A stretch of 64,000 bases of DNA from Halostella pelagica. Its GTDB lineage: Archaea; Halobacteriota; Halobacteria; Halobacteriales; Natronoarchaeaceae. Position numbers and translations under genes: made by a program. Positions 47,501 through 53,007 of the stretch are shown piece by piece. Location: NCBI GenBank assembly GCA_005954745.1, contig CP040680.1, positions 248,001 to 312,000 on the forward strand, in the 5' to 3' direction. The notes under the pieces are model-generated. The model did no database searches and was not told the DNA's origin. It saw only the letters and a list, made by a program, of their open reading frames with translations. Every line of letters starts with the position of its first letter. Positions within the stretch are counted from its first letter, which is position 1.

Positions 47501-47772
47501 ATTCAGAGGCCGAACTCCGCCGCTTCTTGGACGATATCGTCCCTGAGTGGCTCGGACGGATCGACGAGTCGATCGCCAACGGACAGTTCCATACGTCGCT
47601 CCTGTCCGCTCGCGGTGCGAACTGCCGGTACTGTGACTACCGTCGCGCGTGCGACGTTCGCCATCATCGCAAGCGAGAGTTCGTCGACGAGGTCCGCGAT
47701 GACGGCGCTGCCTACGTCCCGCTCCGTGTTCGCGACGACGAGGATATCGAGGCGGTGATGAGCGATGACTGA
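44584..47772 (+). CDS. AddB-like helicase-nuclease subunit with iron-sulfur nuclease domain
   Basis: Recombination protein of 1062 residues that would pair with AddA to resect double-strand DNA ends. The N-terminal two thirds resemble an inactivated UvrD/Rep-like fold (for example FLVGLTSEHFPVTPERPAFF). The C-terminal part is a RecB-like PD-(D/E)XK nuclease with YDYKTG. A first Cys near 720 (RYVECGFKFYADN) and three more near 1012-1021 (NCRYCDYRRAC) are the four ligands of the 4Fe-4S cluster seen in AddB. It overlaps the next gene by 8 bases. Confidence 0.85.
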   Translation: MDSTLLTGPKHARLERRAFQRAGDIATDSLGSILYITRNDARRSMVEDSWAASHDSLRLRAETLDAVVREWYENLYGPVQPLTGQLNRRLTEFALDRTPAETTGVLAGEPASAALADSFSSRFSLFDDARVGTADALAAEFEGSPLDDRIATATVDAYRHYRDLHADHVDEWVCTRGEMFNAVATADQPLSTLFPELDVVVLSGYHEFRPVERRVVERLVDDLPIIALLPLHQGGQTGVDAVAEDALDVYESLNFETVEIEPTDGAGQAFGTITEALYRPDPDVISVSDSLRWRKLPTPEREIRFVARELRTELADGRDPDDLAVVVPGTEAYSGYVEDTFDTFDIPYVTTAASQLNRTFTGSVVHDLLNLAEPDPRAGDLTSLLANPLVDVVDSDLASAITAAARRRDTVSVSPLLDDVDDEAAALIQDLLATLETLRTGDIGGATETLRRLLDDRFDLETATEDYASGAEQAVEGRAYDTVDEVLSSFESLAGVSSDLSPLALFTRAFDGVPIRVPQGAVGGHVEVMGMLDARMRSFEKVFLVGLTSEHFPVTPERPAFFEEMTDAHPRFDTGDERLRGRYLFATLLANVDALTITTPETGDDESTVIRSPVLDELQRVTGIDPEDGVDDRVGSREDLFRHVAETADRRAAVSRAGDRGDLSPEQTKRTDRGLLCAANRGVAGLTDHDGVLAPETVAEVYPPSEREPYSASRIERYVECGFKFYADNVLGIEDPDDVEVVPTPLETGSYVHDVLERFYADLQDKAEDGVDLAAFDRATLTAHLQEIAVEELRNADFDYDGLFYERWKAELFAGLDDCGHTLYESGVKPHEAPEEGLFATFLDNERSRDGAARPHLFEAPFGEGLPDSDAGPFTVERPNGSTVSVRGYIDRVDVSRDGEQPTLTLYDYKTGRAPYMTKTTGGTKFQLPIYLLAADDVVDGDLFDQGPLSATYYQVRPPNDLKVPRGVESKFDSEAELRRFLDDIVPEWLGRIDESIANGQFHTSLLSARGANCRYCDYRRACDVRHHRKREFVDEVRDDGAAYVPLRVRDDEDIEAVMSDD

Positions 47773-50700
47773 GGAGCGCGAGGACATCCAGCTCACCGAG
47801 GAACAGGAGGACGCCCTCGCTCAGGGGCGAAACGTCGCGATCACCGCCGGCGCCGGGACCGGGAAAACGACGACGTTGACCGAGCGGTACGTGACGATTC
47901 TGACCGAAAACCCGTCGCTCACGCCGGAGAACATCGTCACGATCACCTTCACTCGGAAGGCGGCCGCGGAACTGACTGAGCGCGTCCGGGAGGAGGTCTA
48001 CGATCGACTCGAGGCCGCCGACTCACCGGCGACGTATCAGCGCTGGCGGAACGTCCTCGATGATTTGGAGGACGGCTACGTCCACACCATTCACGCGTTC
48101 TGTACTCGGCTGTTACGGGAACGGGCGGTCGAGGCCCCCGTTCCGCTCGGGTTCGACGTGCTCGATGAGGACAGCGCCGCGACACTCCAGCGCGAGGTGG
48201 TGACCGAGTTCTTAGAGCACAACCAGGATGCCGACGACGTTTCCCTTCTCGCCCAGCTCTGGGGCCGTGACCAACTTGTCGACGTTCTCGTGGGGCTGCT
48301 CGATGAACGCCCGCAGAGCGAGGCAGTTCTCGAGGAGTGGCGTGACGCCGAGGTCGACGACTACGTCAATGTCCTCTGGAAGGAGGTCTGCGATTTGGAC
48401 GTGGTCGACGCCCGCCAAACCCTGTATGCGGACGGACTCCTAGAGCAGATAGACACAGTGGCGGGATGCGTGGATCGCGAGGCCGCGGTCTCTGATGATG
48501 ATGGGCTTCGGGCCTACCGAACGCTCACGGAGATCGCGACGACGCTCTCTGAGGACCCCGAAGAAAGCAATCCCCGCAAGTGCCAGCGAGCAATCCTCGA
48601 CCTCTACGAGGCGTGTGAGAAGAAAAACGGAGGTCTGTACAGCAGTTCCGGGTACGTCGTCGGTGATCGAGACGACTGGGGCGAGTACGGGGACGTCTAC
48701 GACGACCTGAAAGATGCCATCGACGCGATAATCGCGGCCGTCGAGCAGCACGAGGATGCGGTCGAGACGACGCCTGGGGAACTGGAAGCGAACAGCGCTC
48801 ACTACGCGCTCGCACTGATGCGTGTCTTCGACGACGTACTCTCGGCCTATACGGCCGAGAAGGAGCGGCGCGATACGCTCGATTTCCCCGGCGTGATCGA
48901 GACGACGCTCGAGTATTTGCGAGGCAACGACGCGGTCACAGCGCGGCTTCGAGAGCAGTTCGCGGCCGTGATGGTCGACGAGTTCCAGGACACGGACCCG
49001 CGCCAGTGGGAGTTGGTAAAGCTCCTCACGGGCGTCGGCGAGCGGACAGCGTCGAACGCCTTTCTCGTCGGCGACGAGAAACAAAGTATCTACGGGTTCC
49101 GTGGTGCCGACGTGACGACGTTCGGGGACGCACGGGCGGAACTACAGGCCGTCAACGCAACCCGTGGCGTCGACAACGTTCAGGATCGCGATGCCAAGAG
49201 CCCGACTGCGCTCGAACTCTCCGGGAACTTTCGGACGTTAAACGAGCCATTGTCCTTCCTGAACGAACTCTTCGACCACCTGTTCCAGCCGGAAGGCGAC
49301 GTCCACGAACCCTACGAGGCGCCACCACAGGAACTGAGCACGCAGCGCGATCGAATCGAAGACATCGAGGGACTACCCGGCAGCGTCGAGTATCTCGTGG
49401 TGCCCGACGACGCCGACACGGCAGCGGCGCTTTTCGGCGACACCCATCCGGTCGCCGAGGGTGCCCTGGATCACACTATTGAGGCGGAAGCGCAAGCCCT
49501 TGCCGCTCGACTGACCCGTCTGTTCGACGACCCGCCGACGGTGCAAGACCCAGACTCGGGAGAGCATCGCGATGCGACGCCTGACGACGTTGCGATCCTC
49601 CTCCGCCGGCGAACCCACCTGGACCGGTATCAACGGGCGCTTGAGGAGTATGACATACCCTACACGGTCGTGGGTGGCGTCGGGTTCTACGATACGCCCG
49701 AGGTACAGGTGCTCACGAACCTGCTTCGGGTGCTCGGTGACACGCAGGACGACGTCTCCCTCTACGGTGTTCTTCGGTCGCCGCTGTTCGGATTCGCAGA
49801 TGATCGCCTTGCACCAGCGGTCGCGGAGGCCGATTCAGTGTGGGACGCGCTCGCCGAGACGGACGACCCACAGCTGGCGGACGCCTTCGACCTCTTGACG
49901 ACGTGGCGGACTCTCAGTGGTTGCGCGACGCCGTCTGAGGATGGTGTGCTCTCGTGGAACCGACTGCTGTCTCGTGTGATCGACGATACTGGGTATCTGG
50001 CGAGCGTGAGTGCTGACGAACGCGGTCGGCAGGCCGTCGCGAACGTCGAGAAGTTCCGCGATCAGGTCCGCACCTGGAGCGAGAACGGGGTTCATACTGC
50101 TGCCGGGTTGCTCCACCGCATCGACCGCCAAGCCGAGATCGACCCTCGGGAGGGGGAGGCAGATATTCCGGGTGACGCCGAGGGCGTCCGGATTATGACG
50201 ATCCATTCCGCGAAGGGACTCGAGTTCCCGATCGTCACCGTCCCCGACCTCGGGAGCGACCTCAACTTCGGTCGCTCCGTCGACGACCATGGCTACGTTC
50301 GACTCGTGGACGGAACTGATGACGCGCCGCCGGTGCCGGCAGTCGGTGGGCCGAATCCGGACGATGCGTTCTCGATCGAGAAGACCGCTGTCCACGAGTA
50401 CGCGGACCGACGGTCGCGTCCACAAGAGCGTGCAGAGTCGAAACGGCTCCTCTACGTTGCGTGTACACGAACGCGGGATCACCTCCTTCTCTGCGGCACG
50501 CACGACATCGACGTTGACGAGTCTGGCGCCATCGAGCTCGGAGAGCCAGCAGCCTTCGACGATGCGGTTCGCTGGCGGGACTGGCTTCAGCCAGTCCTCC
50601 TCGACGGAGCCCTCGTCGCCGAGGCGATTCGGGACGGACAGGCCCGTGGTGAAATGGATGGAGCCAGCTATACCGTTCGCACGCCGCCGCGCCCAGTAGA

Positions 50701-51397
50701 CTGGCACACCGACGACGACGCTATTGATTCAACACCGAAGATATCGATTCCTTCGCCGCCGTCGCTAACGCCGGCGAAACGGATCGCGGCCACGACTCTC
50801 GTGAATGCGGTAGCGGAGACGTCTACAGACGGTCACAGTTACACCCAGAGTGGGGAGTCAGCCGGGCTGAGTCCCACTACGTTTGGGACGGTCGTCCACC
50901 GGCTCAACGAACTCCGCCCACCGAGAGACGAGTGGCCCACTCTGATTCGACGTCTGAGTCGGATGGCTGGCGAAGAGCCGACAGAAGCGGACCTCCGCAA
51001 TGCTGTTGATCACGCTGCTGATGCAGTCGAATTTGTAGACCAGGTTGAGGCCGATGCCCGAGTCCAAGAGACCTACGACGAGTACTCTGTCGTCGCCCGA
51101 ATTGGTGCGTCACGAATTGTCGGTGATATCGACCGGCTGCTCGTTACTCCAGACGCCTACCACATTATTGACTACAAGACGAACGACCTCTCATCGACTA
51201 CCTCGGATGAGCTAGCAGCGCACTATCGACCTCAAATGCTCGCGTACGCTCTCGCACTCTGGCAACACGACCGGAGTCGTGATGTGCGGGCGTCACTCAG
51301 GTTCACTGACACTGGCGTGGAGGAGCGATTTAATTGGGAGTTGGATCAGAGGACGGATATTGAATCTGAACTTCGCCGGATGATGGATCTGTTGTAG
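47765..51397 (+). CDS. AddA-like UvrD-family helicase-nuclease
   Basis: ATP-dependent 3'-5' helicase with a C-terminal nuclease, 1210 residues. Walker A is AGAGTGKTTT at about 29-38, followed by IVTITFTRKAAAELTERV (motif Ia), Walker B VDEFQDTDPRQWEL, QSIYGFRGADVTTF (motif III) and IMTIHSAKGLEFPIV (motif V). Near residue 1118 the RecB-like nuclease shows RIVGDIDRLLVTPDAYHIID then YKTND. With AddB it forms a RecBCD-like end-processing machine. Adjacent to the partition genes, it may help maintain this replicon. Confidence 0.9.
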   Translation: MTEEREDIQLTEEQEDALAQGRNVAITAGAGTGKTTTLTERYVTILTENPSLTPENIVTITFTRKAAAELTERVREEVYDRLEAADSPATYQRWRNVLDDLEDGYVHTIHAFCTRLLRERAVEAPVPLGFDVLDEDSAATLQREVVTEFLEHNQDADDVSLLAQLWGRDQLVDVLVGLLDERPQSEAVLEEWRDAEVDDYVNVLWKEVCDLDVVDARQTLYADGLLEQIDTVAGCVDREAAVSDDDGLRAYRTLTEIATTLSEDPEESNPRKCQRAILDLYEACEKKNGGLYSSSGYVVGDRDDWGEYGDVYDDLKDAIDAIIAAVEQHEDAVETTPGELEANSAHYALALMRVFDDVLSAYTAEKERRDTLDFPGVIETTLEYLRGNDAVTARLREQFAAVMVDEFQDTDPRQWELVKLLTGVGERTASNAFLVGDEKQSIYGFRGADVTTFGDARAELQAVNATRGVDNVQDRDAKSPTALELSGNFRTLNEPLSFLNELFDHLFQPEGDVHEPYEAPPQELSTQRDRIEDIEGLPGSVEYLVVPDDADTAAALFGDTHPVAEGALDHTIEAEAQALAARLTRLFDDPPTVQDPDSGEHRDATPDDVAILLRRRTHLDRYQRALEEYDIPYTVVGGVGFYDTPEVQVLTNLLRVLGDTQDDVSLYGVLRSPLFGFADDRLAPAVAEADSVWDALAETDDPQLADAFDLLTTWRTLSGCATPSEDGVLSWNRLLSRVIDDTGYLASVSADERGRQAVANVEKFRDQVRTWSENGVHTAAGLLHRIDRQAEIDPREGEADIPGDAEGVRIMTIHSAKGLEFPIVTVPDLGSDLNFGRSVDDHGYVRLVDGTDDAPPVPAVGGPNPDDAFSIEKTAVHEYADRRSRPQERAESKRLLYVACTRTRDHLLLCGTHDIDVDESGAIELGEPAAFDDAVRWRDWLQPVLLDGALVAEAIRDGQARGEMDGASYTVRTPPRPVDWHTDDDAIDSTPKISIPSPPSLTPAKRIAATTLVNAVAETSTDGHSYTQSGESAGLSPTTFGTVVHRLNELRPPRDEWPTLIRRLSRMAGEEPTEADLRNAVDHAADAVEFVDQVEADARVQETYDEYSVVARIGASRIVGDIDRLLVTPDAYHIIDYKTNDLSSTTSDELAAHYRPQMLAYALALWQHDRSRDVRASLRFTDTGVEERFNWELDQRTDIESELRRMMDLL

Positions 51398-51466: not shown

Positions 51467-51779
51467 AACGAATAAAACGAATGAAACGAACAAAACGAAC
51501 TGAATGAGCTAAATGAATGTGTTGAACGCATTTTGAGGAACGAACTGGTTAGGGATGAGCTGGCTCCCCTGACTTGATGAACAGAACGAGAGGAACGAAC
51601 AAAACGAATAGAACAAACGAGTTGATGGGAACGAGTGTGTTTGCTTCAACGAGTACAACGAACAGTTGGTTTTAACATCGTAGTAATCCTCTCACCGAGT
51701 GAAACACCCTCGCCGAACGCACCGAACTCAACGATCAAAACGAACGAAACGAGCAAAACGAACTAACTGAGGGAAACGA
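51467..51779. repeat. 9-bp-phased AACGA repeats upstream of parA
   Basis: AACGA(NNNN) units recur at exactly 9-base steps in clusters: 51467, 51476, 51485, 51494, then AATGA at 51503 and 51512; another run at about 51583-51626; and 51730, 51739, 51748, 51757, 51775 (ACTGA at 51766). About 17 AACGA copies in total lie in the non-coding region before parA. Iteron-like arrays next to parA usually form the partition centromere, or a replication origin. The same motif continues inside the next-but-one gene at 52677-52771. Confidence 0.8.
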
Positions 51780-51784
51780 AGAAT

Positions 51785-52603
51785 ATGACCGACACTAACA
51801 CCGCACGAATTACCGTGGCGAATCAGAAAGGAGGCGCAGGAAAGACGACCGACGTCATTCATACTGGCGGCGCGCTTTCCGCCCGGGGACACGATGTCCT
51901 CTTAGTCGATATCGACTATCACGGAGGGCTCACCTGCTCGCTTGGCTACAACGATCTGTACTACGATACCGACCGCACAACGCTTTTCGACGTGCTCGAT
52001 TTCGATCAGATGGAGTCAGTGAACGACATCATCGTCGAGCACGGGGAGTTCGACATCCTCCCCGCGAGTGAGAAACTCGCGAACAACAAGAACATCCAGA
52101 CGCTGCTGGAAGCGCCAAAGAGCAGAGAGCGACTAGAGATGACTCTCGATGAACTCGACAGGGACTACGACTACATTATCGTGGACACGCCGCCTTCCCT
52201 GAACGTCCTCACCGATAACGCTCTCGTCGCGACCGGTAACGTCGTTATCCCGGTCATCCCCGAGAAACTCAACGCCAATAGTCTCCAAATTTTCGCGAAG
52301 CAACTGAGTTCGCTCGAACAGGCGTACGGTGACATCGAAAGACTCGCGATCGTGTGCAATCGGGTCGAACAGAACGCCGAGCACCGAGATACGATCGAGG
52401 AGATCAAATCAGCGTACTCGCTCCCCGTCTTCGAGATCCCGAAGCGCACGGACCTCTCTCAGTCGATCCGTGATGGGGTGTCCGTCTTCGACTTCGGTAA
52501 GGAAAACAAGCGCGTCGAGGATGCTCGCGAGTTGTTCACCGAAATCGCCGACCGGTTCGACGAGACGTTTGAGAAGACTGTTCTTGAGGAGGTTGAAGCA
52601 TGA
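51785..52603 (+). CDS. parA: ParA-family partition ATPase
   Basis: Deviant Walker-type ATPase of 272 residues that positions replicons. The N-terminus has RITVANQKGGAGKTTDVIHT (deviant Walker A), LLVDIDYHGGLT (A' motif) and YIIVDTPPSL (Walker B). The rest follows the plasmid ParA pattern, with VIPVIPEKLNANSLQIF and ending KTVLEEVEA. There is no N-terminal HTH domain, so autoregulation probably uses the partner. Its stop overlaps the next start by 4 bases. A decayed relative lies at 3692-3838. Confidence 0.92.
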   Translation: MTDTNTARITVANQKGGAGKTTDVIHTGGALSARGHDVLLVDIDYHGGLTCSLGYNDLYYDTDRTTLFDVLDFDQMESVNDIIVEHGEFDILPASEKLANNKNIQTLLEAPKSRERLEMTLDELDRDYDYIIVDTPPSLNVLTDNALVATGNVVIPVIPEKLNANSLQIFAKQLSSLEQAYGDIERLAIVCNRVEQNAEHRDTIEEIKSAYSLPVFEIPKRTDLSQSIRDGVSVFDFGKENKRVEDARELFTEIADRFDETFEKTVLEEVEA

Positions 52604-53007
52604 CCGACGGCTGGGGCGATGCTTCTGGCATTGAGGGCAACTATGAAGAGGAAGATGATGAGGTCGATTCCAGCGAAACGAGTGAGGTGAGTGAAACGAG
52701 GGAAACCAGTTCGTCAACCGAAACGACTGAACCGACTTCAACGAGTGAAACGAACGAAACGAGAAAAACGAAGGAGAATATCAAGGACGAGTGGAACGGG
52801 CGGACGATCTATATCCCAGATAATGTGCTTGACGAAATGGAGGATACCTACCTCGAGTCCCAACTGAAACTACGAAAGGCGGGTCAGAATGAGTTCAAGA
52901 AAAACCGCCACTTCTACCCTCTTCTCGTCCAGTTCGGTGTTGAGGCGCTCTCTGAGGCAGATGCTGAGGAAATCCAGGCTCGGCTTTCGGAACTCGGCGA
53001 CGAATGA
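52600..53007 (+). CDS. ParA partner protein with a Thr/Glu tripeptide-repeat region
   Basis: 135 residues, ATGA overlap with parA. An acidic N-terminus is followed by a low-complexity stretch of roughly E-T-S/N-E-T triplets (about 27-60), then a C-terminal domain (WNGRTIYIPDNVLDEMEDTY; LRKAGQNEFKKNRHFYPLLV) that may be the DNA- or ParA-binding part. By position it is the ParB-like adaptor, but I recognise no ParB or RHH motif with certainty. The repeat region is encoded by the same 9-bp AACGA units that lie upstream of parA. Confidence 0.75.
   Translation: MTDGWGDASGIEGNYEEEDDEVDSSETSEVSETRETSSSTETTEPTSTSETNETRKTKENIKDEWNGRTIYIPDNVLDEMEDTYLESQLKLRKAGQNEFKKNRHFYPLLVQFGVEALSEADAEEIQARLSELGDE
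52677..52771. repeat. 9-bp-phased AACGA repeats inside the ParA-partner gene
   Basis: AACGA or one-base variants occur at 52677, 52686 (GGTGA), 52695, 52704 (AACCA), 52722, 52731 (ACCGA), 52740, 52749, 52758 and 52767, all multiples of 9 apart. The single skipped slot is 52713. A 9-base period keeps the reading frame, giving the E-T/S tripeptide pattern in the protein. Confidence 0.82.

Follow-up and report, generated by a model that had tools for sequence, protein, structure and literature searches.

The window analyzed here, a 64,000-nt stretch of Halostella pelagica contig CP040680.1, belongs to a 316-kb replicon and contains a small operon with the hallmarks of plasmid partition. The first gene (51785–52603, + strand) encodes a ParA-like Walker ATPase of 272 aa (Pfam AAA_31, 2e-34) with the P-loop NQKGGAGKTT, whose relatives in the PDB are annotated as Soj, ParA, and ParF. 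It is a short-type ParA that lacks an N-terminal HTH extension, and the protein begins directly before the P-loop. The second gene, here called the partner (52600–53007, +), encodes 135 aa and overlaps parA by 4 bp, as is also observed in annotated operons of the family to which it belongs (family A, described below). The operon consists of these two genes only and is thus distinct from the three-gene AspA-ParB-ParA cassette of pNOB8, whose ParB is CenpA-like. The partner protein is identical to that of the Salinibaculum litoreum plasmid CP046867.1, which is the window's best named match. Directly upstream of the operon, we observe a 1210-aa ORF (47765–51397) with the look of a UvrD/RecB-like helicase.

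The pentamer AACGA recurs at exact 9-bp steps in three blocks 5′ of parA and in a fourth block within the partner gene. The distal block, U1 (51467–51543, +), has exact units at 51467, 51476, 51485, 51494, and 51539, with AATGA in place of AACGA at 51503 and 51512, and in relatives it is kept as a block at approximately −330 to −220 from parA. The middle block, U2 (51585–51661, +), has exact units at 51585, 51594, 51603, 51630, 51648, and 51657, with AACAA at 51612, while the parA-proximal block, U3 (51730–51779, +), has exact units at 51730, 51739, 51748, 51757, and 51775. The phase slips by 1 bp between these upstream blocks. A promoter-like segment, CAGTTGGTTTTAACATCGTAGTAATCC (51661–51689, +), is defined by the consensus of 71 operons and contains the TATA-like element TTTTAACA at 51670–51677. 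From its sequence, we infer that this segment acts as the parA promoter, and because it sits between U2 and U3, the arrays flank the presumed promoter. At three related loci (L097, L108, and L071), an in-frame ATG is found inside the U3 array, so that translation of parA might begin further upstream and yield an N terminus encoded by the array (e.g., MNETNKTNTTRE...). The array may have been captured here for coding a second time, or the start may have been misread.

The in-gene array (52677–52771, +) has exact units at 52677, 52695, 52722, 52740, 52749, 52758, and 52767, the last four of which make up a contiguous core (52740–52771, +) with near-zero synonymous change across 72 genes. An earlier sequence-only reading of this DNA had counted ten of eleven slots as filled, which overstates the regularity: 7 of the 11 slots are exact, and 9 are occupied when up to one mismatch is allowed (AACCA at 52704 and ACCGA at 52731). 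The copies are read in the frame A-ACG-A, so that each requires any codon ending in A, Thr as ACG, and any codon beginning with A. Codon phase is therefore kept, and the encoded residues are mostly Glu-Thr-Ser/Asn, as had been proposed in the form E-T-S/N-E-T, but the general pattern is the looser x-Thr-(Ser/Asn/...). When U3 is compared with the in-gene core, 27 of 31 bases are identical. The three-unit pattern AACGANNNNAACGANNNNAACGA matches the window 7 times, compared to 0 matches in 100 dinucleotide shuffles. A pattern search of the whole 3.94-Mb genome again returns 7 matches, all of them at the parA locus and on one strand, and a reversed control pattern has no matches. The occurrence of 9-bp-phased AACGA both upstream of parA and in the partner gene, the central observation of the earlier reading, is thus upheld.

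The partner itself has no family match in Pfam or NCBIfam, and among PHROGs it matches only those of unknown function. In a codon alignment of 72 genes, residues 1–15 are strongly conserved as the peptide M(S/T)DGWGDASGIEGNY (52600–52644, +), which may contact ParA. The Glu/Thr/Ser-rich linker that follows (52645–52779, +) is under weaker constraint than any other part of the protein and hosts the in-gene array; it is predicted to be disordered, with AlphaFold2 pLDDT values below 50 for residues 10–56, and the model thus provides the flexible N-terminal tail that is expected of a type Ib partner. The C-terminal domain (52777–53004, +) is confidently modeled as an extended segment (residues ~66–73) and three helices (residues 74–93, residues 101–119, and a short last helix). 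In these models, the order of elements is compatible with a ribbon-helix-helix (RHH) DNA-binding fold, which is thus a candidate. A profile of the partner found no RHH chain among PDB entries, and hhalign gave no match between the partner domain and omega or ParG (sequences of PDB 1irq and 1p94). A Foldseek search with the full-length model returned no matches, probably because of the disordered tail. The best fold matches of a domain-only model (E ≥ 3; Z of 5.2 to an unrelated chain) were not credible. Finally, the 72-gene codon alignment contains no conserved Arg within residues 1–60.

Of 391 haloarchaeal genomes sampled, 194 contain a homologue of the partner. From 109 operons with an adjacent ParA gene that we annotated and further ones from a second search, we distinguish three families: family A, which includes the window and comprises 73 operons; family B, with 34 operons and partners that start with MPRGMDERF; and family C, with 22 distinct partners of the type MSDxRADRLRRRR. 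An Arg near the partner N terminus is present in families B and C. Family A spans about 30 genera in 8 taxonomic families. The earlier reading had made its case depend on homologous operons carrying upstream repeats and on their in-gene codons not being freely varied. As to the first, upstream repeats are not missing in the homologues, as both arrays are present in 73/73 family A operons. The upstream regions (up to 450 bp) contain a mean of 15.9 AACGA copies and 8.2 pairs at 9 bp, compared to 0.02 pairs in dinucleotide shuffles, with only 0.29 copies per operon on the other strand. Within the partner genes, the means are 7.0 copies and 2.9 pairs at 9 bp, and runs of at least four units occur in 54 of the 73 genes. 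Without any preselection, AACGA is the top 9-bp-spaced 5-mer, upstream and in-gene alike. A repeat array upstream of the operon, which is characteristic of type Ib systems, is therefore present in all 73 operons as a candidate centromere/operator.

The in-gene array is under selection at the DNA level. Within the linkers of family A, GAA encodes the Glu that precedes Thr in 380 of 399 cases, compared to 152 of 408 for other linker Glu, while in ParA, GAA accounts for 26% of all Glu and for 17 of the 82 that precede Thr. After Thr, Ser is written as AGT or AGC in 234 of 282 cases and never as TCG, which is the commonest Ser codon elsewhere in these linkers. Where the third base before ACG-A is fourfold degenerate, it is A in 66 of 67 cases versus 1 of 26 in the same context in ParA, and this A is kept while the residue before Thr is variable (E, K, S, G, R, A, P, or V). 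Within the four-unit core, a codon alignment of 72 distinct genes has Thr as ACG (71/71, 72/72, and 63/63), Glu as GAA (55/55), and Lys as AAA (50/50). By parsimony on the ParA tree, synonymous changes number 0.25 per codon column in the core, compared to 8.0 in other columns (p about 2e-6) and 6.0 in other E/K/T/S columns (p about 5e-6); this is the synonymous-site comparison across haloarchaeal operons that had been suggested as a check. Permuting synonymous codons within each gene leaves 2.6 copies and 0.16 pairs, versus the 7.0 and 2.9 observed, and the difference is significant at 0.01 in 63 of the 73 single family A genes. On the second point raised above, the codons are thus not freely varied, and the AACGA word is fixed beyond what codon usage, permutation, and phylogeny account for.

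The sister families provide a comparison. The upstream array of family B repeats every 8 bp and is composed of TGAATCA, TGATTCA, and TGAGTCA words, with 286 GANTC pairs at a spacing of 8, while the B genes contain a single GANTC pair at 8 bp and no AACGA excess, and hence no in-gene array. As an 8-bp period cannot hold codon phase, the missing in-gene array in B is what a dual code predicts, in this one family. Family B can thus be regarded as a natural control. Glu before Thr is encoded by GAA in 36 of 94 cases in B linkers and in 11 of 50 cases in C linkers. Because Glu-Thr in both families is mostly not written with GAA, the GAA bias of family A is not inherent to this dipeptide. At a number of B loci (L015–L024 and others), the 8-bp array lies ~400 bp upstream of parA, with some copies downstream of the partner gene. 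Judging from its sequence, this array is an uncharacterized candidate centromere.

Family C is less clear-cut. Its linkers have the tripeptide pattern and a 9-bp period, and the in-gene repeats are mostly of the GACGA type, which does not match the upstream CAAAAC array of the same family. The half-site RAACC of the C operator CAAACCAGTTTG occurs 83 times in-gene, compared to 62 ± 5 under codon permutation, and the codons of Lys, Glu, and Gln residues that precede Pro have A as their last base in 53 of 59 cases versus 28 of 49 in ParA. That the in-gene word follows the operator half-site is suggestive only. We considered C as a second clean case of dual coding and found it to be partial, with the in-gene word tracking the operator word weakly. 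Among the C-type loci, L014 (1501–1941) and L038 (1498–1884) have no visible upstream array, only the CAAACCAGTTTG palindrome at the start of parA, and their sole 9-bp array, made up of AACCA/AACAA words with A-ending codons, lies within the partner gene. Several C loci, including L132, L136, L014, and L129, have the palindrome CAAACNNGTTTG directly at the parA start codon, where it is probably an autoregulatory operator.

Taken as a whole, the locus is, with good probability, a plasmid partition operon in which the partner reads a partition/operator array resembling those of type Ib systems, and this array extends into the codons of the partner's linker. We infer three things: the partner reads the array, the array serves as the centromere, and the in-gene block belongs to that centromere. 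The operon would be one of a haloarchaeal family that is widespread, would encode a ParA ATPase and a small partner that binds DNA, and would have as its partition/operator site an array of AACGA direct repeats spaced 9 bp apart. If type Ib systems are a guide, dimers of the partner would occupy successive 9-bp units. With blocks on either side of the promoter, binding would repress the operon, form the partition complex, and activate ParA. The array would then run on, in codon phase, through the codons of the disordered linker. Because nearly any composition is tolerated by the protein in this linker, the DNA word is free to impose x-Thr-(Ser/Asn/Lys). The more specific proposal, that the centromere is built partly into the gene of its own binding protein and that, with a 9-bp unit equal to three codons, selection for DNA binding and not selection on the protein sets the linker amino acids, strikes us as an even prospect.

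Several other explanations have to be weighed. The one that survives best, although we judge it unlikely, is that the in-gene copy only adjusts the ratio of ParA to partner, as an internal operator or a roadblock to transcription, leaving the upstream array alone as the centromere. The in-gene block is suitably located for such a role, downstream of parA and within the second cistron, and partition proteins of this kind commonly repress at their own promoters (PMC9499535, PMC5016525). However, the in-gene core matches U3 in unit order and spacing as well as in most bases, and the usual run of four contiguous in-gene units would suit a full partition site.

It is much less probable that the AACGA repeat works as RNA, with the transcript binding the partner or another protein, or setting translation or decay. 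Every unit is oriented as in the mRNA, reverse copies being as rare as noted above, and U3 could fall in a 5′ leader downstream of TTTTAACA. On the other hand, U1 and U2 hold most of the upstream copies and lie upstream of the promoter-like element, and thus the parA promoter should not transcribe them; moreover, non-palindromic direct-repeat arrays are usual for partition sites.

Slightly less credible still is that another protein reads the arrays, such as a replication initiator via iterons or a host chromatin protein, and that their proximity to parA is incidental. Replication origins also typically carry direct-repeat arrays, and the DNA-binding fold of the partner is a predicted one. Against this, both the word and the period depend on which ParA/partner subfamily is present (9-bp AACGA in A and 8-bp TGAWTCA in B), the arrays are found nowhere else in the genome, and no annotated replication gene adjoins the operon in the flanks read for pNG600, pHLAC01, and a Natrinema plasmid, from an incomplete gene table. 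We give next to no credence to the in-gene DNA periodicity being a by-product of repeated protein sequence: although the linker has an x-Thr-x tripeptide pattern and its protein and DNA periods coincide, this reading is rejected by the codon tests (GAA in 380/399, AGY after Thr, and A at 66/67 fourfold sites, kept while the residue before Thr varies), by within-gene permutation, which removes the array, and by parsimony (0.25 in the core vs. 8.0).

This locus offers an unusually clear instance of two codes, one for a DNA site and one for a protein, in a single sequence. If our favored reading of a partition array that continues into the partner gene is confirmed, it shows how a disordered linker can be spare room for cis-acting DNA. 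Haloarchaeal plasmid centromeres are largely uncharacterized in the open literature, and sequence-defined candidates are now available on dozens of plasmids, including pNG600 of Haloarcula marismortui and pHLAC01 of Halorubrum lacusprofundi. Parts of this arrangement are already established: repeats adjacent to parA as centromeres, centromeres of direct repeats only, promoter-flanking arrays, and SegB sites within genes (PMC5016525, PMC12284271). Our search of the open-access literature turned up no report of a centromere-like array kept in codon phase within the partner's own gene or of the sites of this AACGA haloarchaeal family, and no binding, footprint, or stability experiments on any member of it.

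Among archaeal systems, the viruses phiH1 and phiCh1 of Halobacterium and Natrialba carry a ParA gene followed by a distant relative of the partner gene, but unlike in family A, no AACGA array is seen at this operon. The published description of the pair goes no further than a ParA-family gene and a hypothetical protein (PMC6210493). In phiH1 (L156, 2573–3743), the remote relative has a tripeptide-like linker in which TCAAAG words lie ~9 bp apart, and an annotated transcript start lies 5 bp before the parA start codon. The SegAB system of Sulfolobales likewise pairs an archaeal ParA with a partner, and SegB sites also occur within genes, including segAB in S. acidocaldarius (PMC12284271). However, SegB recognizes 13-bp palindromes dispersed along the chromosome rather than codon-phased arrays, and there is no detectable sequence relation to the proteins described here.

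Among plasmid systems, the parC site of the R1 ParMRC system also consists of direct repeats in two blocks that flank the operon promoter and serves as both centromere and operator (PMC5016525), but its motor, ParM, is actin-like, and no in-gene array is mentioned. The ParB-parS system of pCXC100 is of type Ib with a centromere of direct repeats only (PMC5016525), like the candidate site of family A. Type Ib centromeres in general are placed upstream of the operon, and none inside a gene is mentioned in the review cited (PMC5016525). The operon also resembles the type Ib systems with RHH centromere binders, namely delta/omega-parS of pSM19035, with its 7-bp repeats, and ParF-ParG-parH of TP228, which share with our operon a short ParA without an N-terminal DNA-binding extension, a small partner with a disordered N-terminal tail, and a short-repeat array at the promoter (PMC9499535, PMC5016525). 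Full activation of ParA in pSM19035 needs four or more contiguous repeats (PMC9499535), a run length that the in-gene array reaches in 54 of the 73 family A genes. The haloarchaeal partner differs in having no detectable sequence or fold relation to omega or ParG, and whereas ParG-type tails have an arginine finger, no Arg is conserved in the corresponding region of the AACGA-family partners. The site differs from those of pSM19035 and TP228 as well: it is archaeal, its unit is a 9-bp AACGA repeat in a single orientation, and the array continues inside the coding sequence of the partner.
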